Under the pieces are notes generated by a model. It did no database searches. It worked only from the letters and a program-made list of their open reading frames with translations, and was not told the origin of the DNA. Position numbers and translations under genes: made by a program. Shown here in pieces: positions 29,193-42,816 of a stretch of 64,000 bases of DNA. This DNA is from an uncultured Paracoccaceae bacterium. Lineage in GTDB: Bacteria > Pseudomonadota > Alphaproteobacteria > Rhodobacterales > Rhodobacteraceae. Each line of letters begins with the position of its first letter. The first letter of the stretch is position 1. The stretch covers positions 1-64,000 of the forward strand of contig CAKZXZ010000236.1 in NCBI GenBank assembly GCA_937883775.1, read 5' to 3'.

Positions 29193-30621
29193 CCGCACGT
29201 GGTTGAAGCCCGCGCTTTTGGGTGTTGGGCTGCTCACCCTCTACCGAGTGCTTGCGCTTCACTGGGGTCAACTCGACCTGTTTGTGGATGAGACGCAGTA
29301 CTGGTTCTGGGGGCAGGAACTGGCGTTTGGATATTACTCCAAACCCCCCATGATTGGCTGGGTGATCCGTGCATTCGTTGAAGTCGGAGGAAGTGATGCG
29401 GCCTTTTGGGTCCGCCTGCCCGCACCGCTCTTTCACGCTGCGACAGCTGTCATCCTTGGCGCCATTGCACGTGAACATATCGGTCACCGCGCAGCCATAG
29501 CGACGGCCTTGGGATATGTGACTATGCCGGTCATCACCGTCGGCTCAACGCTTGTTTCGACAGATACGATCATGTTCCCGTTCCTCGCGTTGGCATTGGG
29601 CGGCTACTTGCGGCTTGCCATCACACCATCGCGTAACCTTGCCCTTTTTACCGGGGCGATGCTGGGCCTTGCGTTCATGTCAAAATATGCAGCGATTTAT
29701 TATGTGCTTTGCGCTGGGCTGGTGGCCTTGGCCCTCCCGCTGGAACGGCTTCGCTCACGCGACTACGGGCTGATCTTGCTGGCCTTCCTGATCGCGATCT
29801 CGCCAAATGTCCTTTGGAATGTTGCAAACGGGTTTTCCACGCTGCAACACACGATGGACAACGCAGACTGGGTGCGCGACCCGAGCAAGCGTGCTGGGCT
29901 GAACATCACGGGCCTGACCGAATTTTTCGCACTTCAGTTCGTAGTCATGGGGCCAGTTCTGTTTTCAGCGCTGCTTCTGATGGGGTGGCAAGCTATTCGT
30001 GGTCAACTCACTCTGATTCAAGTGACGCTTCTGCTGTTCGCGCTACCGATCATCGGGATCGTATGTCTGCAAGCGCTCTTATCGGAAGCCTACGCAAATT
30101 GGGCCGCAGCAGGCACAATCGCAGGCGTCGTGGCCGTGATGTCATGGCTGATCGAGCGTCCAAAATGGATGCGGATATCTTTCTGGATCAACGGCACGAT
30201 CAGCGTGCTTTTGCCCTTGCTGACCCTTTTTGCCGGATCCCTATCGTTTGGTGGCGATCGGCTATTGTTTGAGCGATATGTCGGCCTTGATGAAATGTCG
30301 GAAGAAATCTTTACCATCGCCCGGGACACCGGCCAGAAAGACATCGTCGCCTTTAACCGCGATCTTCTGGCCAACCTGTTTTACACAGCGAAAGGGCGCG
30401 ATTTCACGATCTATGCAGGACCGTTTGAAGGACGGGCGCCCCACCATTACGCCCTGAAGCATGCGTTCGATGGCATGGCAGAAACGGTGCTATTCATCGA
30501 AAAGGAAGGGCGAAGCCCCCCTTGCCCCAGCGATACAGCCATCGAGATCGAAAGCCCTAACGGCAGTTATCAAGATCGAGTGTATATCGCTTACGTCCTT
30601 GACGGGGCGTGTTTGAAGTAA
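29167..30621 (+). CDS. ArnT-like family 39 glycosyltransferase
   Basis: The 484-residue integral membrane protein has the PMT/ArnT fold: an early periplasmic Asp-Glu (LFVDETQYWFWGQEL) after the first helix, SKPPMIGWVIRAF, and many hydrophobic segments. It would take a sugar from undecaprenyl phosphate and add it to lipid A or another periplasmic acceptor. It starts at GTG 29167 inside the LAB_N gene. The acceptor and sugar cannot be read from the sequence. Confidence 0.87.
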   Translation: MSNAVSTPDRTWLKPALLGVGLLTLYRVLALHWGQLDLFVDETQYWFWGQELAFGYYSKPPMIGWVIRAFVEVGGSDAAFWVRLPAPLFHAATAVILGAIAREHIGHRAAIATALGYVTMPVITVGSTLVSTDTIMFPFLALALGGYLRLAITPSRNLALFTGAMLGLAFMSKYAAIYYVLCAGLVALALPLERLRSRDYGLILLAFLIAISPNVLWNVANGFSTLQHTMDNADWVRDPSKRAGLNITGLTEFFALQFVVMGPVLFSALLLMGWQAIRGQLTLIQVTLLLFALPIIGIVCLQALLSEAYANWAAAGTIAGVVAVMSWLIERPKWMRISFWINGTISVLLPLLTLFAGSLSFGGDRLLFERYVGLDEMSEEIFTIARDTGQKDIVAFNRDLLANLFYTAKGRDFTIYAGPFEGRAPHHYALKHAFDGMAETVLFIEKEGRSPPCPSDTAIEIESPNGSYQDRVYIAYVLDGACLK

Positions 30622-30624
30622 AAG

Positions 30625-31821
30625 CTAGATCACCCGATCCGCGCGCAAACGGGCCAGATCATCGGCGGTGAGGCCAAGTGTTTTCAAAACAGTGTCGGTG
30701 TCCGCTCCAAGGACAGGCGGCGGCGTCTTTACCGTAAGGGGCGCGCCGTCGATACGTGCACCCGCCCGCACAACAGTTGCGCCATCCGGAACACCAGGAA
30801 CATCATCAAAACGCGCCAGAAACTGACGCTCGGCAATTTGGGGATGCGCAAGGATATCTGGAACGCTCATAACCTCACCCGTTGGCACGCCAAGTGCATT
30901 CAACGCGGCGACCCAATGCGCGGTGGATTGCATGACCAGCACAGTCTCAAGCTCGACCGTCAGTCGCAAACGATGGGTTTTGCGATCTTCCCGCGTCGCA
31001 AAATCAGGATCGATAAGTAGATCCTCACGTCCCAGATGGCGGACAAGGCTCTCCCACTGGGTATCGCGATTGGCGGCGATGTTGATATATCCATCGGCCA
31101 CTCGAAACGTACCAGACGGGGCCGATGTTGGGTTGTCGTTGCCATTTTGCCGTGGCGCAACGCCCGCAATCAGATGATTCGAAATGGCCCATCCCATGGT
31201 CGCGAGGGTCGCCTCCAACATGGAAACGTCGATCACACACCCCCGCGGAGTTGCATTCAAAGCGGCACAGATTGCCATGGCGGCGGTCAAACCGCCTACC
31301 GTGTCGGCCACAGGATACCCTGCGCGCAAGGGTCCCTCACCATCGCGCCCGGTCACTGACATGACACCAGAAACACCCTGCACGATCTGGTCATAGGCCG
31401 GGCGATCTTTCCACGGACCGTCCTGCCCAAAGCCAGAAATCGCCGCGTAGATCAAAGACGGGTTTTCAGCACGCAGATCATCGGGCCCAACGCCCAGCCG
31501 TTCCATGACACCGGGTCGGAAATTTTCAACGACAACATGAGCGGTACGCACAAGTTTTCTGAGTAAATCCTTACCACGTTGATCTTTTAGGTTGAGCGTC
31601 ACGGACGCCTTCCCGGCATTTTGCGCTAGAAAGGATACCCCCATATCGGCGGCATTCAAAGCCGGATCAGCGCCCAGCTGGCGTGCAAGATCACCGCCGC
31701 CCGGCCGCTCGATCTTGATGACCTCAGCACCCAGATGGGCCAACTGATGACAACAAAATGGCCCTGCCAGCACATTTGTCAGATCAAGAACGCGGACGCC
31801 GGACAGCACAGATTTGGTCAT
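30625..31821 (-). CDS. CaiB/BaiF family CoA-transferase
   Basis: This class III CoA-transferase moves CoA between carboxylic acids. The 398-residue protein has the family start (LSGVRVLDLTNVLAGPFCCHQLAHLGAEVIKIE), the catalytic Asp region (NLKDQRGKDLLRKL), and the C-terminal RFDDVPGV block. No other acyl-CoA genes are adjacent, so the substrate is unknown. It is convergent with the GT39 gene and divergent from the hemP locus. Confidence 0.92.
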   Translation of the reverse strand: MTKSVLSGVRVLDLTNVLAGPFCCHQLAHLGAEVIKIERPGGGDLARQLGADPALNAADMGVSFLAQNAGKASVTLNLKDQRGKDLLRKLVRTAHVVVENFRPGVMERLGVGPDDLRAENPSLIYAAISGFGQDGPWKDRPAYDQIVQGVSGVMSVTGRDGEGPLRAGYPVADTVGGLTAAMAICAALNATPRGCVIDVSMLEATLATMGWAISNHLIAGVAPRQNGNDNPTSAPSGTFRVADGYINIAANRDTQWESLVRHLGREDLLIDPDFATREDRKTHRLRLTVELETVLVMQSTAHWVAALNALGVPTGEVMSVPDILAHPQIAERQFLARFDDVPGVPDGATVVRAGARIDGAPLTVKTPPPVLGADTDTVLKTLGLTADDLARLRADRVI

Positions 31822-31881
31822 TAAAACGCCTCTCTCGGTTTCCCGCGCAAGCTAGGTCAGGTCGAGCATGGCGTCCATCAG

Positions 31882-31938
31882 CTGATTTGTCCGACTATTT
31901 TTATCAGGATTGACGGATGGCTTGGATATGCCTATCTT
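31882..31938 (+). promoter_or_regulatory. hemP promoter with candidate iron-responsive operator
   Basis: A good sigma-70-type promoter, TTGACG (31910-31915), 17 bases, TATCTT (31933-31938), faces the hemP operon. Just upstream and touching the -35 box is CTGATTTGTCCGA then TATTTTTATCAG (31882-31907). The same sequence recurs before the imelysin operon at 35147. It is probably the site of an iron regulator. Confidence 0.65.
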
Positions 31939-32013
31939 GGACCCCGTTAGAGATTCCATCCAAGCCACCCTGTTTTCAGGTCAGCCCGGAGCCGTCGCGC
32001 AACAGGAGAGACC

Positions 32014-32133
32014 ATGACAACGCCGATGACCCGCCGCCTTTGGCGCGCCCTGATCGAGGCCACACAGACTGGCCTCTGCCCTACTGAACGCCGTTTGGCC
32101 CTTACTTTGGATCGGATAGAGACATGGGTTTGA
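32014..32133 (+). CDS. Small 39-residue protein upstream of hemP
   Basis: This ORF is too short for the ORF track. It starts at ATG 32014 behind a strong AGGAGAG site and encodes a basic, soluble peptide (MTTPMTRRLWRALIEATQTG, ending TLDRIETWV). Its stop lies 10 bases inside hemP, in another frame, so translation of hemP is probably coupled to it. No family is recognised. The strong ribosome site and the position between the iron promoter and hemP support it as a real gene. Confidence 0.65.
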   Translation: MTTPMTRRLWRALIEATQTGLCPTERRLALTLDRIETWV

Positions 32134-32297
32134 TGATGAATGCGAGCCCCGCCCCGACACCACAGTTGGTTGACGATACACCCAGCTACGATGCACAAGA
32201 TCTTACTGGGCAAGATGGACTTGCACGGATCGTCTTGAATGACCAAGTATATACCCTGCGGATCACCCGCGCTGGAAAGCTGATCTTAACCAAATAA
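32124..32297 (+). CDS. hemP: Hemin uptake protein HemP
   Basis: This 57-residue protein is too short for the ORF track. It ends in VYTLRITRAGKLILTK, the defining C-terminal signature of the HemP/HmuP family. HmuP members are needed for full expression of haem-uptake receptors, and the molecular mechanism is not settled. ATG 32124 is in the normal position, though Met4 or Met5 could also be used. Haem transport genes are not in the window. Confidence 0.93.
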   Translation: MGLMMNASPAPTPQLVDDTPSYDAQDLTGQDGLARIVLNDQVYTLRITRAGKLILTK

Positions 32298-32339
32298 CCC
32301 CGCCACACGCGGCCTATGCCGCGCTTAGCCAAGGTTCAC

Positions 32340-32582
32340 ATGCCCAAAGTTCCAAGTCCCTGTATTGATGTCTGTAAATACAAACGGCAGGGGCACTGCA
32401 TCGGTTGCTCGATGACGAAAGCGCAGAAGTCGCTTTATAAGCAGTTGAAAAAAGAGAAACACCAGCAGGCGTTCGTGCACATGCTGGTGTCTCAACAAGA
32501 AAACATGGGCAAATTTTCGCATTGGGCTGATGCCTACGCGAAGCGGTGCCGCAAGAAAGGGGTCAAGAACCCCATTTCATGA
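32340..32582 (+). CDS. DUF1289 domain protein
   Basis: This 80-residue protein has the DUF1289 cysteine pattern CIDVCKYKRQGHCIGC near the N terminus, which suggests metal or iron-sulfur binding. A basic helical C-terminal tail follows (WADAYAKRCRKKG). The start at ATG 32340 (AAGG six bases upstream) is preferred to ATG 32316. Its function is unknown. It lies 42 bases after hemP and may share its transcript. Confidence 0.88.
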   Translation: MPKVPSPCIDVCKYKRQGHCIGCSMTKAQKSLYKQLKKEKHQQAFVHMLVSQQENMGKFSHWADAYAKRCRKKGVKNPIS

Positions 32583-33053
32583 TTAGCGCAGATGTGCCCG
32601 CAGGAACCACGCAAACTTTTCGTGGGTCTGACCACGCGAAATGCACAAATCTTCCGTCAGCGTATCGCCGTGCTCTGCAGCCAATTCACCGGCGCCAGCC
32701 AGCGTGGCGGCCAGCGTAACCTGAGCATCCATCATCTCTTTAATCATGGTTTTGTCATCGGCATGACCGTCATGCTCGCTGATTTTCGAACGCTTCAGCA
32801 TACCTGCAAGTGTGCCTTCAGCGTGTGCGTCGAGTGCTTTAACACGCTCGGCCAAATCATCTTGGGCGGTGAAGTGGTCTTCGTAGATCTCTTGGAACAA
32901 CGCATGCAGCGGACCAAAGGCCATGCCGGTGACATTCCAGTGGAAATTCTGCGCCAGCATCGTTGTGACAGCTGTCTCGGCGACAGACTGATTCAAAGCA
33001 TCTGCGATCGCGCTTGATGCATCTGGTGTCAAATTCGCGGCAGTTTGTGTCAT
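32583..33053 (-). CDS. dps: Dps family DNA-protecting ferritin
   Basis: Dps forms a 12-subunit shell that oxidises Fe2+ with peroxide, stores iron and shields DNA. The 156-residue protein has the ferroxidase ligands in NFHWNVTGMAFGPLHALFQEIYEDH (split across the intersubunit site) and ends in a short helix (THEKFAWFLRAHLR). ATG 33053 fits the GGAGACGAGG site better than the TTG at 33074. An ICE/Irr-like palindrome lies about 100 bases upstream of the start. Confidence 0.94.
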   Translation of the reverse strand: MTQTAANLTPDASSAIADALNQSVAETAVTTMLAQNFHWNVTGMAFGPLHALFQEIYEDHFTAQDDLAERVKALDAHAEGTLAGMLKRSKISEHDGHADDKTMIKEMMDAQVTLAATLAGAGELAAEHGDTLTEDLCISRGQTHEKFAWFLRAHLR

Positions 33054-33124
33054 CGGTCTTATCCTCGTCTCCAAATAATCGCTGGCTGGCGGAAGCTGGC
33101 TTGCGTACCGTCCAAAGATATACC

Positions 33125-33144
33125 TCTTGGCAGAAAAGCCAAGA
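33125..33144. repeat. 7-bp inverted repeat in the dps upstream region
   Basis: TCTTGGC-AGAAAA-GCCAAGA is a perfect 7-bp inverted repeat beside the ICE-like palindrome and upstream of dps. It has no T run on either strand, so it is more likely an operator or mRNA hairpin than a terminator. Confidence 0.55.
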
Positions 33145-33148
33145 ACTT

Positions 33149-33165
33149 TTTAGAATTATTCTAAA
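33149..33165. promoter_or_regulatory. ICE/Irr-box-like palindrome
   Basis: TTTAGAA-TTA-TTCTAAA is a perfect 17-bp palindrome that matches the iron control element bound by Irr in alphaproteobacteria. It lies 96-112 bases upstream of the dps start and overlaps the stop codon of the unknown gene 33161-33583, also on the minus strand. Confidence 0.8.
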
Positions 33166-33583
33166 GCGCCAGCTGCGCGATGAGGGAAAGAACCATCCTA
33201 TGACTGTGTCGCGGGATCCGCGACGTGAGCAAAAAGGCAACGCTATCTGCGTTTCCAGCATTCTGTGCATCTACCACAGACAGCAACCAAACTTCATCGA
33301 AAGACGCCGTCTTTGCGCTGGGTTCATAAACGACAGGGGCCTGGCCCCACGCATCACCCAGCACCTGCACCAGCGTCGTTGATAAGGTTTCGCGCTGCTG
33401 TGCGATTCCGCATCCAACCGCCGCGCAAATACGATGACCATCGACCCGGCTGGCCGACCGTGCCTTGCGCATCAACTGACGTAGTGGAACCAACCGGCGC
33501 TGTGTTTCAGCATCCAAAGGGAGACTGCGAGGCGACCGCTCTGCAGGGATCGTTTCAACTTGGGTCAGCGCGTGAAGAGCCAT
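33161..33583 (-). CDS. Conserved-looking protein of unknown function in the iron region
   Basis: I do not recognise a family. The 140-residue soluble protein from ATG 33583 contains PLRQLMRKARSASRVDGHRICAAVGCGIA and a C-terminal part with an acidic/hydrophobic pattern (FDEVWLLSVVDA, VAFLLTSRIPRHS). Its stop codon overlaps the ICE palindrome of dps. A relative of the hemP operator motif (33604-33622) lies directly before its start. It may be iron controlled. Confidence 0.65.
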   Translation of the reverse strand: MALHALTQVETIPAERSPRSLPLDAETQRRLVPLRQLMRKARSASRVDGHRICAAVGCGIAQQRETLSTTLVQVLGDAWGQAPVVYEPSAKTASFDEVWLLSVVDAQNAGNADSVAFLLTSRIPRHSHRMVLSLIAQLAL

Positions 33584-33603
33584 TATGAGAATCAACTTCT
33601 ATC

Positions 33604-33622
33604 TTTATTCCTGATTAAAATA
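33604..33622 (-). promoter_or_regulatory. Relative of the iron operator motif (minus strand)
   Basis: On the minus strand TATTTTAATCAGGAATAAA matches the right half of the hemP and imelysin motif (TATTTTnnTCAG followed by GAAT or a similar sequence). It ends about 20 bases before the ATG of the unknown gene. The left half (TGATTTnTCCGA) is not preserved, so this is a partial match. Confidence 0.45.
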
Positions 33623-33694
33623 ATAAGCTTTTTACGCTCTGCCTAGGGCTCACATGTCGCAGCCAGGTCTAAATCGATAAAAAGACCATAAAAT

Positions 33695-33720
33695 TTGAGA
33701 TTGCATAGGTATTCAATCAG
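33695..33720 (+). promoter_or_regulatory. Weak relative of the iron operator motif before the cupin gene
   Basis: TTGA ... TATTCAATCAG has the same 26-bp end-to-end spacing as the hemP and imelysin copies and keeps TTGA, TATT and TCAG, but little between. It lies 37 bases before the bicupin ATG. This could be coincidence. Confidence 0.3.
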
Positions 33721-33756
33721 AGTACTCTTAGCGTCAGGATCACATGGAGACACAAA

Positions 33757-34722
33757 ATGACCCCGGCAGAAATGGAGGCACGGATCGTGCGCTACGGCGA
33801 CCTTGTCCCTTGCAAGACCGCTTTTATCGACGCGCACACACCTGGTAGCGACCAAAAGGAAAATTTCACGATCATCGGGGGCGGTGTTTCAGAAAGCGCC
33901 GATCAGCACGTTCATATCCGCGACACGCCGGGATTTAACATCGGCGCCGCCGGACAACCTCCGAAATGTCGCAACTCGCTCCACACTCACTCCACCGCCG
34001 AGGTTTTTTTCGTGCTCAAAGGCCGTTGGCGCTTTTTCTGGGGGCGTTGGGGCACCTCAGGTGAGGTTGTTCTCGAGGAAGGCGACATCTTCAATATCCC
34101 GACTGGTATCTTCCGCGGCTTTGAAAATATCGGCACGGACTACGGAATGATTATGGCGATCCTTGGCGGCGATGACGCTGGCGGTGGCGTGCTGTGGGCA
34201 CCGCAAGTGATTGAAGATGCTGCAAATCACGGGCTTGTCCTGGGGGAAAATGGCAAGCTCTATGACACCAAAAAAGGCGAGAGCTTGCCAGACGGCATAA
34301 AGCCAATGCCACTTTTGGATCAGGCCGTGCTGGACCGCATGCCAGAGCCGACAACAGCCGATGTGGTTCCAACATATGTCGCACGTTACTGGGACATGAT
34401 GGCGTTGGCTGACCGGCAACCCGCCAACGTCATCTCCGAGAACGGAATACTACGCGATAAACCTGGCTTCACCGTCGAAATGTTGAGCCGCGGCTCGATC
34501 TCTGATGAGGTATATACCACTGACAAGCATGAAGTTCTGATGCCCGTTCGCGGCTATTGGAAGTTGACATATGATGGCGGCCAAACCGTTCTAAACCCCG
34601 GAGATACCTGCGCCATCCCACCTGATTTACCGCATGGCCTCCGTCCCGCAATGACGGGCGAAACAAGCCTTTATCGCATCCGCAGCACCGACGACTCAGC
34701 CGGGCCGACGCTGACGCATTGA
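33757..34722 (+). CDS. Bicupin protein
   Basis: The 321-residue protein has two cupin domains. The first carries a full metal-binding motif (HTHSTAEVFFVLKG, HxH-x3-E-x6-G, with the second motif in EGDIFNIPTGIFRGF). The second (HEVLMPVRGYWKLTY and PGDTCAIPPDLPHG) keeps the fold, with a single late His. Enzymes of this type include dioxygenases and isomerases, and the substrate is not clear. It sits in the iron region with a possible weak regulator site upstream. Confidence 0.85.
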   Translation: MTPAEMEARIVRYGDLVPCKTAFIDAHTPGSDQKENFTIIGGGVSESADQHVHIRDTPGFNIGAAGQPPKCRNSLHTHSTAEVFFVLKGRWRFFWGRWGTSGEVVLEEGDIFNIPTGIFRGFENIGTDYGMIMAILGGDDAGGGVLWAPQVIEDAANHGLVLGENGKLYDTKKGESLPDGIKPMPLLDQAVLDRMPEPTTADVVPTYVARYWDMMALADRQPANVISENGILRDKPGFTVEMLSRGSISDEVYTTDKHEVLMPVRGYWKLTYDGGQTVLNPGDTCAIPPDLPHGLRPAMTGETSLYRIRSTDDSAGPTLTH

Positions 34723-34932
34723 TGTTTCGATAAATCCGAGCCGGCCCAGCGCATCGCGGGCCTGCTCGCTTTCCTTGGGGGTTCCATCAAGGACGGACGC
34801 GTTCAACCGTTGCACAATAAAACTCAGTTTTTGGTCCGGATGCCGCCCGCGCAGCAGTGACATCACCTGATCGTCCCGCATCTGTAAGATGCTATACGCA
34901 ACGTCCTGCTCAACACTCTGAAGGTTTGACAT
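34696..34932 (-). CDS. Small protein of unknown function
   Basis: This 78-residue soluble protein is called from ATG 34932, where GTGGGGA lies upstream. Earlier Met codons are possible. It is predicted to be helical (LQSVEQDVAYSILQMRDDQV) with a conserved-looking middle (QRLNASVLDGTPKESEQARD). It overlaps the 3' end of the convergent bicupin gene by 27 bases. No family is recognised. Confidence 0.5.
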   Translation of the reverse strand: MSNLQSVEQDVAYSILQMRDDQVMSLLRGRHPDQKLSFIVQRLNASVLDGTPKESEQARDALGRLGFIETSMRQRRPG

Positions 34933-35146
34933 CACAATCCCCACTTGCATCGTATTTCTGTTACCTTTCTTGGCAGCGCAAATGATTCTGGGCAAACGAT
35001 TTATCGGCAGAATTTCAAAGCTGCGCTCAAATGGAATCTTGAAAAATGGCGCTTATCACAGCCCATGAACGCCTTGATATCATGTGCTGACAAAGGCTCT
35101 GCGGTGAATTCTCTGCGGATCTCAACAGCCTGCGGCGTTTCTACTA

Positions 35147-35178
35147 TTGATTTATCCGATTATTTTACTCAGAAATGA
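35147..35178 (+). promoter_or_regulatory. Candidate iron-responsive operator before the imelysin operon
   Basis: TTGATTTATCCGA then TATTTTACTCAG (35147-35172) matches the hemP copy at 21 of 26 positions and extends into AAATGA. It begins about 100 bases before the first ORF of the operon. The rest of the 313-base gap between the genes at 34932 and 35246 shows no other gene or clear repeat. Confidence 0.65.
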
Positions 35179-35245
35179 ACGGCAAAGATTTTTAAGTCTT
35201 TCACACGTTATAAACGTCTGCCGTATCGCCCTGAAAAGGTTTCAA

Positions 35246-35410
35246 ATGCGCTTGAATCCGCCCGATTCTTCTTTGCGAAACGCGCCTGAACCTGCGCGGC
35301 AAAGCCTCAAGCCTGAGGTTGATGCATTAAACTTGTCTGACTACGCACCGGATGATCTGCAGGTAGAGCGGCATTTTGAGCAGGTCCTTCGCCAAGAGAC
35401 CCGTAAATGA
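35246..35410 (+). CDS. Small 54-residue protein leading the imelysin operon
   Basis: This hydrophilic 54-residue protein starts at ATG 35246 with AAAAGG upstream. The ORF track starts earlier (35147) inside the operator, which is unlikely. It is acidic and probably disordered in the first half (LKPEVDALNLSDYAPDDLQ) with a helical end. It overlaps the next gene by 4 bases (ATGA). I do not recognise it. Confidence 0.6.
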   Translation: MRLNPPDSSLRNAPEPARQSLKPEVDALNLSDYAPDDLQVERHFEQVLRQETRK

Positions 35411-35883
35411 GTGCGCAATACGCAAAACGTGGCGGAGCCCCGGTAGGCCTTGTCGCAAACCTGCCCAAAGTAGAAGCAGCCTGCGTGCGTTATTTGCGCC
35501 TGTGGAGCATGGGCGTTGATGGTCAGTCCGAGGTCTGGAACGCCTTCGCTGCAGGACTGGGCGGTGTGCAGGGTAAACAGGCGATGCGCACCTTCGAAGA
35601 ACTGCACACCATATGTTGCCGCCATGGCCGACGTCCGCTGATGCGGCACGCCATCAACTGCAAATGTCTTGGCGCCGACGAATCCTGCTTTGCCAATTTC
35701 ATCGCAACAGCCGCCGAGGGCGAGATGGAAGACGCAATGCTGATCGCAACTCTGATCGTGAGGGCCGATATGGCCCCCGTGATCCCCGCGCTGGCCAGCG
35801 ATCTTGGCTTGGCGCTGAAACGCATGCCGCCCGATCTGTCATCGGTGGCAATGCACACTCACCAAACACATACGGTTCACTAG
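35407..35883 (+). CDS. Cys-rich protein of unknown function in the imelysin operon
   Basis: The 158-residue soluble protein has a Cys cluster (HTICCRHGRRPLMRHAINCKCLGADESC) that could bind metal or an iron-sulfur cluster. It has no signal peptide, so it acts in the cytoplasm, whereas the rest of the operon is exported. It overlaps the upstream small gene by 4 bases and ends 11 bases before the imelysin start. No family is recognised. An accessory or regulatory role in the iron operon is an inference. Confidence 0.75.
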   Translation: MSAQYAKRGGAPVGLVANLPKVEAACVRYLRLWSMGVDGQSEVWNAFAAGLGGVQGKQAMRTFEELHTICCRHGRRPLMRHAINCKCLGADESCFANFIATAAEGEMEDAMLIATLIVRADMAPVIPALASDLGLALKRMPPDLSSVAMHTHQTHTVH

Positions 35884-35894
35884 AGGAGATACCG

Positions 35895-37157
35895 ATGAAG
35901 ACCACCCCCATGTTCCTGGCACCGCTCGCGCTTGCGCTTGCTACCCCGGCTTTTGCCGTGGAAAAGGCCGACGTGCTGACAAACTATGCAAACATCGCTG
36001 CCGCGAAATATGCGGATAGTGTGACAACGGCTCAGCGTCTGCAAACAGCCGTAGACGCATTGATCGCAAACCCTTCGGCCGAGGCGCTTGAAGATGCCAA
36101 AGCTGCATGGCTTGCATCGCGCGTGCCTTACCAGCAGACCGAAGTTTATCGCTTTGGCAACGCCATCGTTGACGATTGGGAAGGCAAAGTGAACGCCTGG
36201 CCACTTGATGAAGGCCTGATTGACTATGTCGACGGCTCCTATGGCGGCCCTTCCGATGAAAATGCATTTGCGGTTCTGAACGTCGTTGCCAATCCGAACT
36301 TTACGCTGTCGGGTTCCGAAGTGGATGCAGCCGAAATCACGCCTGCCTTGCTTGAAGAAACGCTTCATGAAGCAGACGGGATCGAGGCAAACGTAGCCAC
36401 AGGCTACCACGCCATCGAGTTTTTGCTGTGGGGTCAGGACCTGAACGGTCACGGCCCAGGCGCAGGCAACCGTCCGTGGACAGACTATGCAGCTGGTGAC
36501 GCCTGCACCGGTGGCAATTGTGATCGCCGCGCGGATTACCTGAAAGCCTCCACAGATCTGCTGGTTTCCGATCTGGAATGGATGGCAGCACAATGGATCG
36601 ACGGTGGCGCAGCACGTGCCACTCTGATGGAAAACGAAGATGCTGGCATTTCGGCAATTCTTACGGGCATGGGCTCGCTGTCTTATGGCGAGCAAGCTGG
36701 TGAGCGGATGCGTCTTGGCCTCATGCTGAACGATCCCGAAGAAGAGCATGATTGCTTTGCCGACAATACACATAACAGCCACTACTATGACGGTCTGGGC
36801 ATCCAGAACGTCTATCTGGGCGAGTACATCCGCATCGATGGCACATCCGTCAGCGGCGCTTCGCTGGCTGACATGGTCGCTGCAACCGACGCCGCGCTAG
36901 ACGCCGAAATGCAAGGCAAGCTGTCAACCACGATGATGGCTCTTGGCCGGATTAAATCAGCAGCCGAAGCTGGCTTTGCCTATGACCAGATGCTGGAGCA
37001 GGGCAACGCCGGTGGCGAAGCGCTTATCATGGGTGGCGTGAACGGCCTTGTCGACCAGACGCGCTCGATCGAGCGTGTTGTGGCCGCGCTGGGCGTTGAT
37101 GCGATCGAGTTCGAAGGCTCTGACAGCCTCGACAATCCTGAGGCCGTCTTTGAGTAA
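35895..37157 (+). CDS. Imelysin-family (IrpA-like) periplasmic protein
   Basis: The 420-residue form from ATG 35895 (AGGAGAT upstream) has a signal peptide ending at TPAFA and an imelysin/peptidase M75 fold with the GYHAIEFLLWG (GxHxxE) motif that can bind metal. The family is iron-regulated in many bacteria and is thought to help iron uptake. The earlier ORF start (35613) lies inside the upstream gene. A dihaem oxidoreductase, a second imelysin and a DUF1513 gene follow. Confidence 0.92.
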   Translation: MKTTPMFLAPLALALATPAFAVEKADVLTNYANIAAAKYADSVTTAQRLQTAVDALIANPSAEALEDAKAAWLASRVPYQQTEVYRFGNAIVDDWEGKVNAWPLDEGLIDYVDGSYGGPSDENAFAVLNVVANPNFTLSGSEVDAAEITPALLEETLHEADGIEANVATGYHAIEFLLWGQDLNGHGPGAGNRPWTDYAAGDACTGGNCDRRADYLKASTDLLVSDLEWMAAQWIDGGAARATLMENEDAGISAILTGMGSLSYGEQAGERMRLGLMLNDPEEEHDCFADNTHNSHYYDGLGIQNVYLGEYIRIDGTSVSGASLADMVAATDAALDAEMQGKLSTTMMALGRIKSAAEAGFAYDQMLEQGNAGGEALIMGGVNGLVDQTRSIERVVAALGVDAIEFEGSDSLDNPEAVFE

Positions 37158-37179
37158 GACACTCCTTTAAAACTTCGTT

Positions 37180-37209
37180 GCCCGGGCGCTTGTCAAATCG
37201 CGTTCGGGC
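37180..37209 (+). other. Intercistronic stem-loop after the first imelysin gene
   Basis: GCCCGGGCGC and GCGTTCGGGC form a 10-bp stem (two G-U pairs) with a 10-base loop. No T run follows, so it more likely protects the upstream mRNA or slows transcription than ends it, which would raise imelysin expression above the downstream genes. Confidence 0.6.
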
Positions 37210-37281
37210 GACGCGCCGCCCGACGATGCCATGTCATTGCGTCGCAGGGTCACTCGGCCAGCAACAGCTATGTTCCACCAA

Positions 37282-38829
37282 ATGAAAAACGGTACGACCA
37301 TGCACGCCACCCGATCTATTGCGATCTTTCTGACCACATTCGTTGCCAGCACCAGCAGCGCAACCATGGCGGATGTGACGCTAGAGCCCCACCTCAACAT
37401 TGTTCCACGCACCGCCGAAGAAGCCGCACGGATCGCCAAAGTGCTGACACCGCCAACCGACTTCAGCAAAGCTGCTGCATATGAAGAAAAATCGGCTGGA
37501 GCGGCCACAGTTCGCGCACGCAAGAACAAAGACGCGTTCTCTCAACCCTCCGGGAATATCTCGTTCGAGGATGAGCTAGACTTCAAAGTCGGGAATGGTC
37601 TGTTCAAGAAACTTTGGGTGTCATCACCTTCCTCGACGCTCGCCTCCGATGGGCTAGGCCCGCTTTATAACGCACGCTCTTGTCAGCGCTGCCACATCAA
37701 AGATGGGCGCGGTCATCCGCCAGAACCCAATGATACCAATTCTATTTCGATGTTCCTGCGCATTTCGATCCCGGGCGGGCCCGAGCACGACATCGCTGAA
37801 ATTAAAGACTACATCGCGACAGCCCCTGATCCGAACTATGGCACACAAATGCAGGATTTCGGCATTGCCGGCTTGCCTGCCGAATACAGCCTAAAAATCG
37901 ACTACGAAGAGATCGAGGTCGCGCTGTCCGAAGGTGAAACTGCCAGCTTGCGCGCACCGACATATACCGCTGAAAACCTTGGCTATGGCCCGCTTCATCC
38001 CGACGCGATGCTCAGCCCACGGGTTGCCCCGCAGATGATCGGCCTTGGCCTTCTTGAGGCGATCCCGGCCGCAGATATTCTGGCTCTTGCCGATCCTGAT
38101 GATGCGGATGGCGATGGGATTTCGGGGCGCCCCAACATTGTTTGGTCAGCCGAATTCAATCAGCCGATGCTGGGCCGCTTTGGACTTAAGGCAGGCTCGC
38201 CCACGGTTAAGGAACAGTCTGCAGGCGCATTTGCCGGGGATATCGGGATTTCTTCCCCGATTAACCCTGATCCATGGGGTGAATGTATGCCCGCGCAGAC
38301 AGATTGTGTTGCAGCGCCTCATGGTGATGGCGACACGCGTGTGACCGAAGTGGATGCGGAAGGGCTCCAGCTTGTGACATTCTATAGCCAGAACCTTGGC
38401 GTTCCAGCACGACGAGATGTCAACGACCCGCAGGTTCTGCGCGGCAAGCAGGTGTTTTATGAAACCAACTGCGTGGCATGCCATCAACCCAACTTTGTGA
38501 CCCACCGACTGGTCGATCAACATGAACAAAGCTTTCAGTTGATCTGGCCCTACACCGATATGCTGCTCCACGACATGGGCGAAGGTCTTGCAGACAATCG
38601 TCCCGAGGCACGTGCAAATGGCCGCGAATGGCGGACACCACCGCTGTGGGGCGTCGGTATGACCGAACGGGTGAGCGGGCACACCTATTTCCTGCATGAT
38701 GGTCGGGCTCGCAATTTGCTTGAAGCCGTCTTGTGGCACGGTGGCGAAGCCGAAGCTCAAAAAGAGGCTGTTATCTCAATGCCTGCTGCAGACCGTGCCG
38801 CCCTTATCGCCTTTCTTGAAAGTCTCTGA
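37282..38829 (+). CDS. Periplasmic dihaem oxidoreductase (DHOR/thiol oxidoreductase family)
   Basis: The protein has about 515 residues from ATG 37282. The start is uncertain between 37231, 37270, 37282 and 37300, and the signal peptide (RSIAIFLTTFVASTSSATMA) is common to all. It carries two CxxCH haem sites, SCQRCH and NCVACH, and fits the di-haem family found with imelysins in iron-regulated loci. A ferric or thiol redox step in iron uptake is inferred, since no substrate is established. Confidence 0.9.
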   Translation: MKNGTTMHATRSIAIFLTTFVASTSSATMADVTLEPHLNIVPRTAEEAARIAKVLTPPTDFSKAAAYEEKSAGAATVRARKNKDAFSQPSGNISFEDELDFKVGNGLFKKLWVSSPSSTLASDGLGPLYNARSCQRCHIKDGRGHPPEPNDTNSISMFLRISIPGGPEHDIAEIKDYIATAPDPNYGTQMQDFGIAGLPAEYSLKIDYEEIEVALSEGETASLRAPTYTAENLGYGPLHPDAMLSPRVAPQMIGLGLLEAIPAADILALADPDDADGDGISGRPNIVWSAEFNQPMLGRFGLKAGSPTVKEQSAGAFAGDIGISSPINPDPWGECMPAQTDCVAAPHGDGDTRVTEVDAEGLQLVTFYSQNLGVPARRDVNDPQVLRGKQVFYETNCVACHQPNFVTHRLVDQHEQSFQLIWPYTDMLLHDMGEGLADNRPEARANGREWRTPPLWGVGMTERVSGHTYFLHDGRARNLLEAVLWHGGEAEAQKEAVISMPAADRAALIAFLESL

Positions 38830-38832
38830 TCT

Positions 38833-39828
38833 ATGCGTTTGATCCTTGCCCTCGTGGCCCTGCTCCCGCTGCCCGCACTTGCTGACAGCACCCGTTCGAT
38901 TGTCGACGAACATATCCTTCCAGGGTTCGCCGCATTGGCGGAAACCACACAGACGCTGCAAAATACTGCGGCTGAAACCTGCACCCGGGGCGATCCACTG
39001 AACACGGCCTATAACGCCGCTTTTGATGCCTGGATCACCGTCAGCCATCTGCGGTTTGGTCCGACCGAGCAGGAAGACCGGGCTTTCGCATTGGCTTTTT
39101 GGCCAGACAGTCGCGGCGCGACGCCCAAAGCGCTGTCACGGCTTATCGCAAACGCTGATCCGGTTGCTGAAACCGCAGACACTTACGCCGAGGTGTCTAT
39201 CGCCGCTCGGGGCTTCTTTGCGCTGGAATTCCTGCTTTATGATGCAGCCTTTGCCGATCAGGGGGATGCAGACTATCGCTGCCAGCTGATCCAGACGATC
39301 ACCGCAGATATTGCAGCGGTTTCCGACGCAATGCAGCAGGATTGGCAAAATGACTATGCCGCCAAACTGATTGAGCCATCAGCCGACAGCCCTTACCGAA
39401 CCCCGGCCGAAGCCACGCAAGAGCTGTTCAAAGCGCTCAACACTGGTTTGCAATTTACATCTGAAAACCGTCTTGGCCGCCCGCTGGGCACCTTTGACAA
39501 GCCGCGCCCAAACCGGGCTGAAGCACGGCGCTCTGCGCGCTCGTTGCGTCATGTTGAGTTGTCACTGACGTCTTTGAAATCGCTGGCTCTGGCCCTTGCC
39601 GCAGACGCCCCCGACATTCAGGAAAAGCTGGATCAACGCTTTACAAAAGCGATTGATGTCGCCGCGCGCGTCGATGATCCCAGTTTTGCTGGCGTTGCCG
39701 ACCCCGGCACGCGCATCAAGGTCGAGGCGTTGCAAAGCGCTGTTGAATCGATCCGCCAGGCGGTAGCTCTTGATCTGGGGCCGCGTCTGGGCGTCTCGGT
39801 CGGCTTCAACGCACTTGACGGCGATTGA
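38833..39828 (+). CDS. Second imelysin-family periplasmic protein
   Basis: The 331-residue protein has a signal peptide ending at LPLPALA and the imelysin-like core (AETTQTLQNTAAETC, RGFFALEFLLYDA). The HxxE position of the first imelysin is replaced here by FFALEF, so the metal site is altered. It starts 3 bases after the dihaem gene and ends one base before the DUF1513 gene. The pairing of two different imelysins on either side of a dihaem protein is a known arrangement. Confidence 0.88.
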   Translation: MRLILALVALLPLPALADSTRSIVDEHILPGFAALAETTQTLQNTAAETCTRGDPLNTAYNAAFDAWITVSHLRFGPTEQEDRAFALAFWPDSRGATPKALSRLIANADPVAETADTYAEVSIAARGFFALEFLLYDAAFADQGDADYRCQLIQTITADIAAVSDAMQQDWQNDYAAKLIEPSADSPYRTPAEATQELFKALNTGLQFTSENRLGRPLGTFDKPRPNRAEARRSARSLRHVELSLTSLKSLALALAADAPDIQEKLDQRFTKAIDVAARVDDPSFAGVADPGTRIKVEALQSAVESIRQAVALDLGPRLGVSVGFNALDGD

Positions 39829-39829
39829 G

Positions 39830-40891
39830 ATGGCGACCCGTCGGCAACTTCTGGCAGGCCTTCTGGCAACAAGTCTGGTGCCGCGACACTCATGGGCTGA
39901 TGCGGGCAATCCTGCTTTTCTGTCAGCGGCCGGTTTGCCCGGCGGGGGATACGCCCTTTGCGGGATCAGCGACGCGCTTGATGTTGTTTTCCGCATTCCG
40001 TTGCCCGCACGCGGCCACGCAGCCGCGGCACACCCCGCACGCGCCGAGGCCGTCGCCTTTGCACGGCGCCCGGGAACATTCGCACTTGTGATAGATTGCC
40101 GGTCAGGCAAAGTGCTTGCCAAGTTGCAAGCGCCCGCAGACCGACACTTTTACGGTCACGGCGCATTCTCGGCAGACGGTACCCGGCTTTACACGACCGA
40201 AAATGATTACGAGGCGGCCGAGGGCCGCATCGGCATCTGGGATGTCAATGCAGGCTACAGGCGCGTTGGCGACATCTCGAGCGGTGGCATCGGTCCGCAC
40301 GACATCAAGCGCCTGCCCGGCACTGAGACGCTTGTCATCGCAAACGGTGGTATTGAAACACACCCTGACAGCGGTCGAAGCAAGCTGAACTTGCCCACCA
40401 TGAGGCCCAATCTCAGCTACATTGAAGATCGGCAGATCACCGAACAGATCGAGCTTGATACAAAGCTACACCGGAATTCGATCCGTCACCTCGCAGTCTC
40501 AAAGACGAGCAGTGTCGCTTTTGCAATGCAATGGCAGGGCGACAAGATCGACGCACCGTTGCTTGGCGTTCACAAGCGAGGCCAGGCACCGCGCCTTGCA
40601 ACTGCACCTGCGGATGATTGGCGCGCCATGCAGGGCTATGCAGGCAGCGTTGCCTTCTCGGCAGATGGCGAACAGATTGCCCTGACCTCCCCTCGTGGAG
40701 GGATTGTGCAATTCTACGATCAACGCGACGCCACGCTGCAACAGACCCTTCAAATGGCCGATGCATGTGGCGTTGCTCCGACGCAAGACAAACTTGTCAT
40801 CACATCCGGCACCGGCACGATACAGACCCTTTCAGGACAGACCGTTCAAAATGACGATCTGTTGTGGGACAACCATCTGATCCCTGTTTAG
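39830..40891 (+). CDS. DUF1513 family protein, Tat-type signal
   Basis: The 353-residue form from ATG 39830 begins MATRRQLLAGLLATSLVPRHSWA, a probable Tat-type signal (TRRQLLAG), and continues as a beta-propeller-like protein (SADGTRLYTTENDYE, GPHDIKRLPG). DUF1513 genes end imelysin operons in many bacteria. No activity is known. A periplasmic site is inferred from the signal. The ORF start 60 bases earlier falls in the upstream gene. Confidence 0.88.
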   Translation: MATRRQLLAGLLATSLVPRHSWADAGNPAFLSAAGLPGGGYALCGISDALDVVFRIPLPARGHAAAAHPARAEAVAFARRPGTFALVIDCRSGKVLAKLQAPADRHFYGHGAFSADGTRLYTTENDYEAAEGRIGIWDVNAGYRRVGDISSGGIGPHDIKRLPGTETLVIANGGIETHPDSGRSKLNLPTMRPNLSYIEDRQITEQIELDTKLHRNSIRHLAVSKTSSVAFAMQWQGDKIDAPLLGVHKRGQAPRLATAPADDWRAMQGYAGSVAFSADGEQIALTSPRGGIVQFYDQRDATLQQTLQMADACGVAPTQDKLVITSGTGTIQTLSGQTVQNDDLLWDNHLIPV

Positions 40892-40956
40892 GCCACAGCC
40901 GAAACGCTCGACCAATCGACTGATATCGTTCGAGAATTCCAAAACCTGCTGTAAAG

Positions 40957-41015
40957 GCCCAAAAAGTGGCCGCTTTTGTGGCCTGTCGCAGCCACAGGTT
41001 ATATTTGGGCTTTTT
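40957..41015 (+). terminator. Terminator of the imelysin operon
   Basis: GCCCAAA (40957-40963) pairs with TTTGGGC (41004-41010), which is followed by TTTTT. An inner hairpin TGTGGC / GCCACA lies between them. It stands 65 bases after the DUF1513 stop. The ORF track start for the sugar phosphorylase (40966) would fall inside it. Confidence 0.65.
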
Positions 41016-41055
41016 GAAATTGTGCGTTGCGACGCTTCTATGCTTGTTTGTGCAA

Positions 41056-42816
41056 ATGACGTTACTGAACTCTCACAATAGGCCTTGGCCAGCGCTCAGC
41101 CGCACCCTCGCTGCCAGGGTCGCGCTCATCTATCCCGATCTTGATGCGGATATACTGGCCAGCAAAATCATCGATGCCTTCTGGCCCGATGGCACCCAAC
41201 GCCGCAAGCGCGCCCGCAGGCCCGGCAACGCGCTTTGGTCTCAGGACGACGCGTTGCTGATTACCTATGGGAACTCGCTGATCGACGGCAAACACAAGCC
41301 GCTTGATCTGCTGCATCATTTTTTGGGCAGCCAACTGTCAGGCGTGTTGGACGGCGTCCATATCCTACCCTTCTTTCCGTTCACCTCGGATGACGGCTTT
41401 GCCGTGTCGGATTATACCAGCGTGAACCCACAATTGGGCGATTGGGCCGATATTCAGCGTATCGCCGGTGATTTCAAATTGATGTCAGATCTGGTGCTGA
41501 ACCACGTGTCCAGCCAAGGCCAGTGGTTCAACGCCTACAGGCAGCGGCAGGCGCCCTATGACAGGTTCTTCTATGAAGGTGATCCGGAAGACGATCTCAG
41601 CACCGTCGTACGCCCGCGCACAACACCCTTGCTGCAAGAGGTCGAAACACTTGATGGGCCGCGCCATGTGTGGTGCACGTTCAGCCATGACCAGATTGAT
41701 CTGGATTTCCGCAATCCCGAAGTGTTGTTGGAATTTCTGCGGATCATTCGCCAGCATGTTGAAAATGGCGTGCAGATCGTACGTCTGGATGCCGTTGCGT
41801 TCTTGTGGAAAGAACCGGGCACCCCGTCGATCCATATGCCGCAGACACATGAGATCGTTAAACTCATCCGCATGCTTTGCGATTTTGCGATTGAGCCGAT
41901 TATTCTGCTGACAGAAACCAACGTCCCGAAGGCCGAAAACCTCAGCTATTTCGGCAATCAAGACGAAGCGCACGTCATCTACAACTTTCCGCTGCCGCCG
42001 CTGATCTTGCATGCCTTGCTGTCAGGAGACGCGCGCCATCTTGTGAAGTGGCAGCGCTCGATGCCGCCTGCTCCACTGGGTTGCGCTTATCTGAACTTCA
42101 CCGCCAGTCATGATGGCATCGGCATGCGGCCGGCCGAAGGGCTTTTATCACCCGAAGATCAAGCGGCGATGATCGACACTGTCGAAAAGAACGGTGGTCG
42201 TGTCTCGATGCGCGCTTTGCCGAATGGCGGCGTGGCACCCTATGAATTGAACACGACATTCTTCGATGCGCTGCGCGAGACGTTTGATGGTCCTGATGAC
42301 CACCACATCGAACGCTTTCTTTGCTCGCAGATGATCGTGATGTCGCTGGAAGGTGTCCCCGCTTTCTATATTCATGCCCTTCTGGCGACAGCGAATGACC
42401 ATGACAGCGTTGAAAAACGCGGCATGAACCGTGCGATCAACCGGCATCGCTGGAATTATGATGTATTGCAGGCAAAACTGGCTGACCCGACAAGCCGCCA
42501 TGCCATCGTTCTGGAGGCATTGCGGAAACGACTGAAACTTCGCCGCAAGCAGGTTGCGTTTCACCCCAACGCCACGCAATTCACCCTGCAAATGGCAGAT
42601 CCCAGGGTCTTTGGTCTTTGGCGACAAAGCCTTGACCGCAGACAATCGATCTTTGCCCTGCACAATGTCAGCGCAGAAACAGTCACTCTGCCTGCGGCGA
42701 CACTGAACCTGATTGAAGACGAAAGCTGGGGCGATCTAATGGCCCCAGACGATGTGATCGGGGAAGAGATCACGCTTGCCCCGTATCAATGCCGCTGGAT
42801 CACGAATATGGGCTAG
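41056..42816 (+). CDS. GH13_18 sugar phosphorylase (possible glucosylglycerate phosphorylase)
   Basis: The 586-residue (beta/alpha)8 enzyme has the GH13 nucleophile RLDAVAFLWKEPG, the acid/base LLTETNV and the stabiliser TASHDGIG, as in sucrose/glucosylglycerate phosphorylases. These split an alpha-glucoside with phosphate to give glucose-1-phosphate. It converges on GpgS- and phosphatase-like genes, which favours glucosylglycerate over sucrose. The start at ATG 41056 replaces the ORF track's GTG 40966, which lies in a terminator. Confidence 0.85.
   Translation: MTLLNSHNRPWPALSRTLAARVALIYPDLDADILASKIIDAFWPDGTQRRKRARRPGNALWSQDDALLITYGNSLIDGKHKPLDLLHHFLGSQLSGVLDGVHILPFFPFTSDDGFAVSDYTSVNPQLGDWADIQRIAGDFKLMSDLVLNHVSSQGQWFNAYRQRQAPYDRFFYEGDPEDDLSTVVRPRTTPLLQEVETLDGPRHVWCTFSHDQIDLDFRNPEVLLEFLRIIRQHVENGVQIVRLDAVAFLWKEPGTPSIHMPQTHEIVKLIRMLCDFAIEPIILLTETNVPKAENLSYFGNQDEAHVIYNFPLPPLILHALLSGDARHLVKWQRSMPPAPLGCAYLNFTASHDGIGMRPAEGLLSPEDQAAMIDTVEKNGGRVSMRALPNGGVAPYELNTTFFDALRETFDGPDDHHIERFLCSQMIVMSLEGVPAFYIHALLATANDHDSVEKRGMNRAINRHRWNYDVLQAKLADPTSRHAIVLEALRKRLKLRRKQVAFHPNATQFTLQMADPRVFGLWRQSLDRRQSIFALHNVSAETVTLPAATLNLIEDESWGDLMAPDDVIGEEITLAPYQCRWITNMG

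Follow-up and report, generated by a model that had tools for sequence, protein, structure and literature searches.

Iron-dependent gene regulation in Rhodobacteraceae has been described in terms of the Iron-Rhodo-box, a palindromic site of ~19 bp lying before iron uptake and storage genes across the family, and the regulator IscR (PMC4618611). IscR of R. sphaeroides carries a single cysteine, C142, within the motif PCPAV, and electrophoretic mobility shift assays demonstrated that it binds in vitro to hemP and iscR promoter DNA containing the box (PMC4618611). When iron is sufficient, holo-IscR represses the box genes of R. sphaeroides, and expression of hemP, irpA and the imelysin-operon genes increases without IscR (PMC4618611). 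A second iron regulator, Irr, has been found in published work to repress its targets when iron is short. Its binding site in alphaproteobacteria, the Irr box or ICE, follows TTTAGAAnnnTTCTAAA and has in R. sphaeroides been predicted at mbfA and ccpA only (PMC3413700).

Here, the window, i.e., the whole 64-kb stretch analysed from an uncultured Paracoccaceae bacterium, shares with the described regulon a common palindrome, hemP, imelysin (irpA), the di-haem oxidoreductase operon and, in the same genome, a single-Cys IscR (PMC4618611). In contrast, the regulon table of R. sphaeroides includes bfd-bfr and exbBD-tonB and no dps pair (PMC4618611), whereas the window has dps paired with orf140, a gene for an uncharacterised protein of 140 amino acids. 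The same Irr box is present, here at dps and iscR, and the Irr gene of this genome lies beside fabA. Three palindromes in the window are read as IscR operators of the Iron-Rhodo-box type, at which holo-IscR would repress, and iron shortage release, hemP, the imelysin operon and orf140; we assign this reading a probability of roughly 0.88. On this reading, three promoters in a compact iron island would carry a known iron switch; the island is composed of the following elements:

31891-31907, candidate Iron-Rhodo-box 1 (CCGACTATTTTTATCAG) in the hemP promoter, directly 5' of the -35 element, 21.4 bits
31910-31938, plus strand, hemP promoter TTGACG-17-TATCTT, both hexamers kept in the same-genus genome
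32014-32130, plus strand, small open reading frame of 38 codons just 5' of and overlapping hemP, C-terminal LTLDRIE
32124-32297, plus strand, hemP, hemin uptake protein (PF10636, 57.9 bits)
32583-33050, minus strand, dps, ferritin-like DNA-starvation protein (PF00210)
33149-33165, Irr box/ICE (TTTAGAATTATTCTAAA) between orf140 and dps, matching 14/14 positions of TTTAGAAnnnTTCTAAA
33161-33583, minus strand, orf140, uncharacterised 140-aa protein, predicted all-helical
33611-33627, candidate Iron-Rhodo-box 3 (CTTATTATTTTAATCAG on the minus strand), 28 bp before the orf140 ATG, 20.7 bits
33699-33718, 20-bp dyad GATTGCATAGGTATTCAATC before a two-cupin gene (33757-34722), 8.0 bits as a box
35147-35152, plus strand, -35-like TTGATT 5' of box 2, in the same position as TTGAC in promoters of relatives
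35156-35172, candidate Iron-Rhodo-box 2 (CCGATTATTTTACTCAG) of the imelysin operon, 21.8 bits
35883-37157, plus strand, imelysin/IrpA-like iron protein (PF09375, 297 bits)
37231-38829, plus strand, di-haem oxidoreductase of the imelysin operon (PF06537)
38833-39828, plus strand, second imelysin (PF09375)
39770-40891, plus strand, DUF1513 protein of the imelysin operon (PF07433)

The first-pass annotation of this DNA had pointed out that two 26-mers, 31882-31907 (CTGATTTGTCCGACTATTTTTATCAG) and 35147-35172 (TTGATTTATCCGATTATTTTACTCAG), agree at 21 of 26 positions, and the agreement, with five differing positions, was recovered. Their shared pattern TGATTTNTCCGANTATTTTNNTCAG, allowing up to three mismatches, occurs at these two places alone in the window and in none of 100 shuffles, a similarity well above chance. 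While the similarity is real, the 26-mer did not hold as the motif: what is conserved is a palindrome of 17 bp at 31891-31907 and 35156-35172, of the form YYGAnTAnnnnAnTCRR, and the TGATTT common to the two 5' ends is a flank resembling a -35 element, which is altered in the same-genus genome. The 26-bp similarity thus arises from a box together with its -35-like flank. Two further copies had been proposed between these sites. The one described as partial (33604-33622, minus strand) instead turned out to be a complete third box at 33611-33627, while the one described as weak (33695-33720) contains a separate dyad, GATTGnATAnnTATnCAATC at 33699-33718, which is unchanged in the same-genus genome and has the appearance of an operator for a different regulator.

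As the 17-bp core CCGANTATTTTNNTCAG alone is not exceptional when three mismatches are allowed, a matrix was needed. A set of 80 loci surrounding imelysin homologues, almost all bearing the name Rhodobacteraceae or Alphaproteobacteria, was collected, and a symmetric 17-bp matrix was refined from a degenerate palindrome on their upstream 1.4 kb; training excluded the window, although the seed pattern was nonetheless suggested by the window sequence. The matrix found 154 sites above 11 bits in 79 of the 80 loci, and 74/80 upstream regions contained a box of at least 16 bits. Box density reached 1.2 sites/kb in the kilobase before imelysin compared with ~0.02/kb in most other bins. Using this matrix derived from other genomes, the window sites at 35156-35172, 31891-31907 and 33611-33627 scored 21.8, 21.4 and 20.7 bits, respectively, the next-best site in the 64 kb having 12.8 bits. 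Under a first-order null, 0.008 sites scoring 20 bits or more would be expected in 64 kb, against three observed. In addition, a matrix trained on half of the loci detected boxes upstream in 35/40 of the held-out loci, with 51 sites across 48 kb versus three sites in 169.5 kb of distal control DNA, and gave the window sites 20.7-22.3 bits. Among hemP loci, 16/101 were without a box of at least 13 bits within 420 bp. The suggestion, made from the letters of the window, that these sites correspond to the Iron-Rhodo-box is supported by this family-wide palindrome, which in Rhodobacteraceae precedes hemP and imelysin genes, and by the encoded single-Cys IscR. The assignment is based on the palindrome, its targets, its place in the promoter and the regulator rather than on the letters of the published logo, and the 17-bp palindromic core of the window boxes fits the ~19-bp site.

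As in the definition of the Iron-Rhodo-box, the boxes adjoin the predicted -35/-10 region at the hemP and imelysin promoters. The TTGACG-17-TATCTT promoter annotated earlier at hemP is present, starting 2 bp past the box, so that this box lies upstream of the -35 element TTGACG. The same-genus copy of this box scores 23.9 bits and is identical at 15/17 positions. The imelysin box instead lies downstream of the -35-like element, following TTGATT after 3 bp. Among relatives, tandem boxes 27 or 28 bp apart are found in 56/80 imelysin loci, and a TTGAC-like element lies between the boxes in 52/56 of these pairs; this constant spacing, with the -35 in between, suggests that two IscR dimers may sit adjacent on the DNA. 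A tandem arrangement was rejected for the window promoters, each of which has a single box with no second one 25-29 bp to either side.

Beside the observed motif, its conservation and promoter placement, the gene set and the presence of both IscR and Irr, binding of IscR to the three boxes and repression through that binding are proposed by analogy with R. sphaeroides. When iron is plentiful, cluster-bearing IscR would occupy the boxes and block RNA polymerase, as the placement of the boxes would allow: abutting the -35 at hemP, filling the spacer after the TTGATT -35 at imelysin, and 28 bp before the start codon at orf140. When iron is short, loss of the cluster would permit transcription of hemP, the imelysin operon and orf140, while dps, with its upstream Irr box, would respond in the opposite way and be repressed.

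The genome encodes two Rrf2 proteins. One, IscR, is 152 amino acids long, heads the isc-suf genes, adjoins iscS, and has C140, located in PCPAV, as its sole cysteine, an arrangement typical of Rhodobacteraceae; it scores best to IscR models, although its 142.8 bits fall under the equivalog cut-off of 207.55. While iscR is bound at its box in R. sphaeroides (PMC4618611), the iscR promoter here has no Iron-Rhodo-box, its best site (10.4 bits) being itself an Irr box, CTTAGAACTATTCTAAG, upstream of iscR (L001 1986-2002). The second Rrf2 protein leaves room for the palindromes to be read by another, RirA-like regulator rather than IscR, in particular as RirA boxes have been described as similar to Iron-Rhodo-boxes (PMC4618611) and RirA is present in some roseobacters (PMC8007024). 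However, RirA was not found in the genome by the curated model, to which both Rrf2 proteins score 35 bits against a cut-off of 193, and the second Rrf2 gene does not lie at an iron locus but beside a gene that, judging from its sequence, encodes a COG0523-type GTPase, making this alternative improbable. It is still less probable, to the point of being negligible, that Fur or Irr, and not an Rrf2 protein, reads the sites: Irr is encoded (203.7 bits to NF045678, above the curated cut-off; gene adjoining fabA) and the iron cluster also contains Irr boxes, yet these boxes are a distinct motif, found separately at 33149-33165 and before iscR.

Control by IscR was further compared with the distribution of the motif across the genome. 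The first two scan patterns recover 72/81 sites of at least 18 bits in a family test set, so that the totals are lower bounds. At least five sites of 20 bits or more were found genome-wide, three of them within this 3.3-kb iron cluster, and a weaker site (17.4 bits) precedes a heme-type TonB receptor gene (TIGR01785). The motif is thus not equally frequent at non-iron genes, although two strong sites have no evident iron link. These two, C168:3350 (L132:3350) and C173:8604 (L133:5105), score 22.9 and 22.8 bits and lie at genes for a HAD hydrolase/GGDEF regulator and at lineage-specific genes, respectively; the former site is not preserved in either of two same-genus genomes. Two other sites, C60:58271 and C178:87611, were disregarded as falling within apparently coding DNA, and a sequence-only covariance model, which returned one site in the genome, was too insensitive for 17 bp. 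Matches to the degenerate pattern were no commoner genome-wide than those of a reversed-pattern control (135 vs 214), and high-scoring sites alone were therefore interpreted. That result, like the -35-like TGATTT at the 5' end of the 26-mer, would suit a common promoter architecture, or AT-rich sequence alike by chance, with no operator, an explanation that can be set aside given the absence of shuffle matches, the strong palindromy, the recurrence of boxes before the same genes throughout the family, and an orf140 box conserved at 17/17 positions amid surroundings ~60% identical.

While the iron switch is ordinary in kind and well supported, orf140 is a useful by-product, as a nameless gene becomes a testable member of the iron regulon. 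Searches of Pfam and NCBIfam gave no convincing match for any member of its family, no PDB entry matched orf140 by sequence, and a fold search of the PDB returned none with E <= 0.001. An AlphaFold2 model built from 12 sequences is all-helical with a mean pLDDT of 79.3. In the same-genus genome, the box before orf140 is identical at 17/17 positions and the orf140 DNA is 59% identical. Homologues were detected by profile search in 42/249 genomes of the family, and a survey set of 33 loci (32 relatives and the window) showed dps directly downstream on the same strand in 30/33 and a box of at least 16 bits before orf140 in 27/33. Since imelysin led to a dozen of the 33 loci, linkage to imelysin is biased in this set; the linkage to dps is unbiased. 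The Dps protein of the window scores 63.5 bits to the NCBIfam Dps model PRK09448.1, under the cut-off of 114. An Irr box (at least 12/14 positions) is present in 24/30 orf140-dps loci, mostly ~115 bp before dps. On plasmids of Phaeobacter, Sulfitobacter, Tateyamaria and Roseivivax, orf140 homologues annotated as 'hypothetical protein' directly precede the Dps gene with a DUF1289 gene nearby; the Irr box is kept at 4/4 of these loci, while the box before orf140 is clear at one (19.5 bits), lies inside the annotated gene start at another (16.9 bits), scores 14.5 bits at a third and is absent from the fourth.

With an Irr box just before dps and an IscR box before orf140, opposite iron control of the two neighbours is predicted, and the pair would be a simple natural case of adjacent genes responding oppositely to iron. 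It resembles the pair bfd-bfr, for bacterioferritin-associated ferredoxin and bacterioferritin, in that a small gene under predicted iron-starvation control adjoins an iron-storage gene. By contrast, orf140 matches neither Bfd nor a ferredoxin, and just one of its cysteines is nearly invariant. Judging from gene order and regulatory sites, orf140 may be a partner of Dps. It could be speculated, with considerable doubt, that orf140 represents an iron-starvation-induced, IscR-controlled family acting on Dps, for example by protecting or liberating its iron in the way that Bfd serves bacterioferritin, while Irr shuts off dps. The pair may thus reveal iron recovery from Dps.

Finally, several features were observed in front of hemP. 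Rfam identified no RNA element in 30000-42000, including the hemP leader. The leader at 31926-32013 is strikingly conserved in the same-genus genome and holds a possible 29-codon open reading frame; an inverted repeat, GGCTTGGAT/ATCCAAGCC, is present in the window, its left arm not being conserved in the same-genus genome. The small open reading frame before hemP is 89% identical there, and the Roseivivax and Tateyamaria plasmids have hypothetical genes at its position. A related C-terminal motif (LExxxDRxE-like) is found at 27/90 hemP loci, including L034, L042, L263 and L264, compared with 0.1% of shuffled open reading frames.
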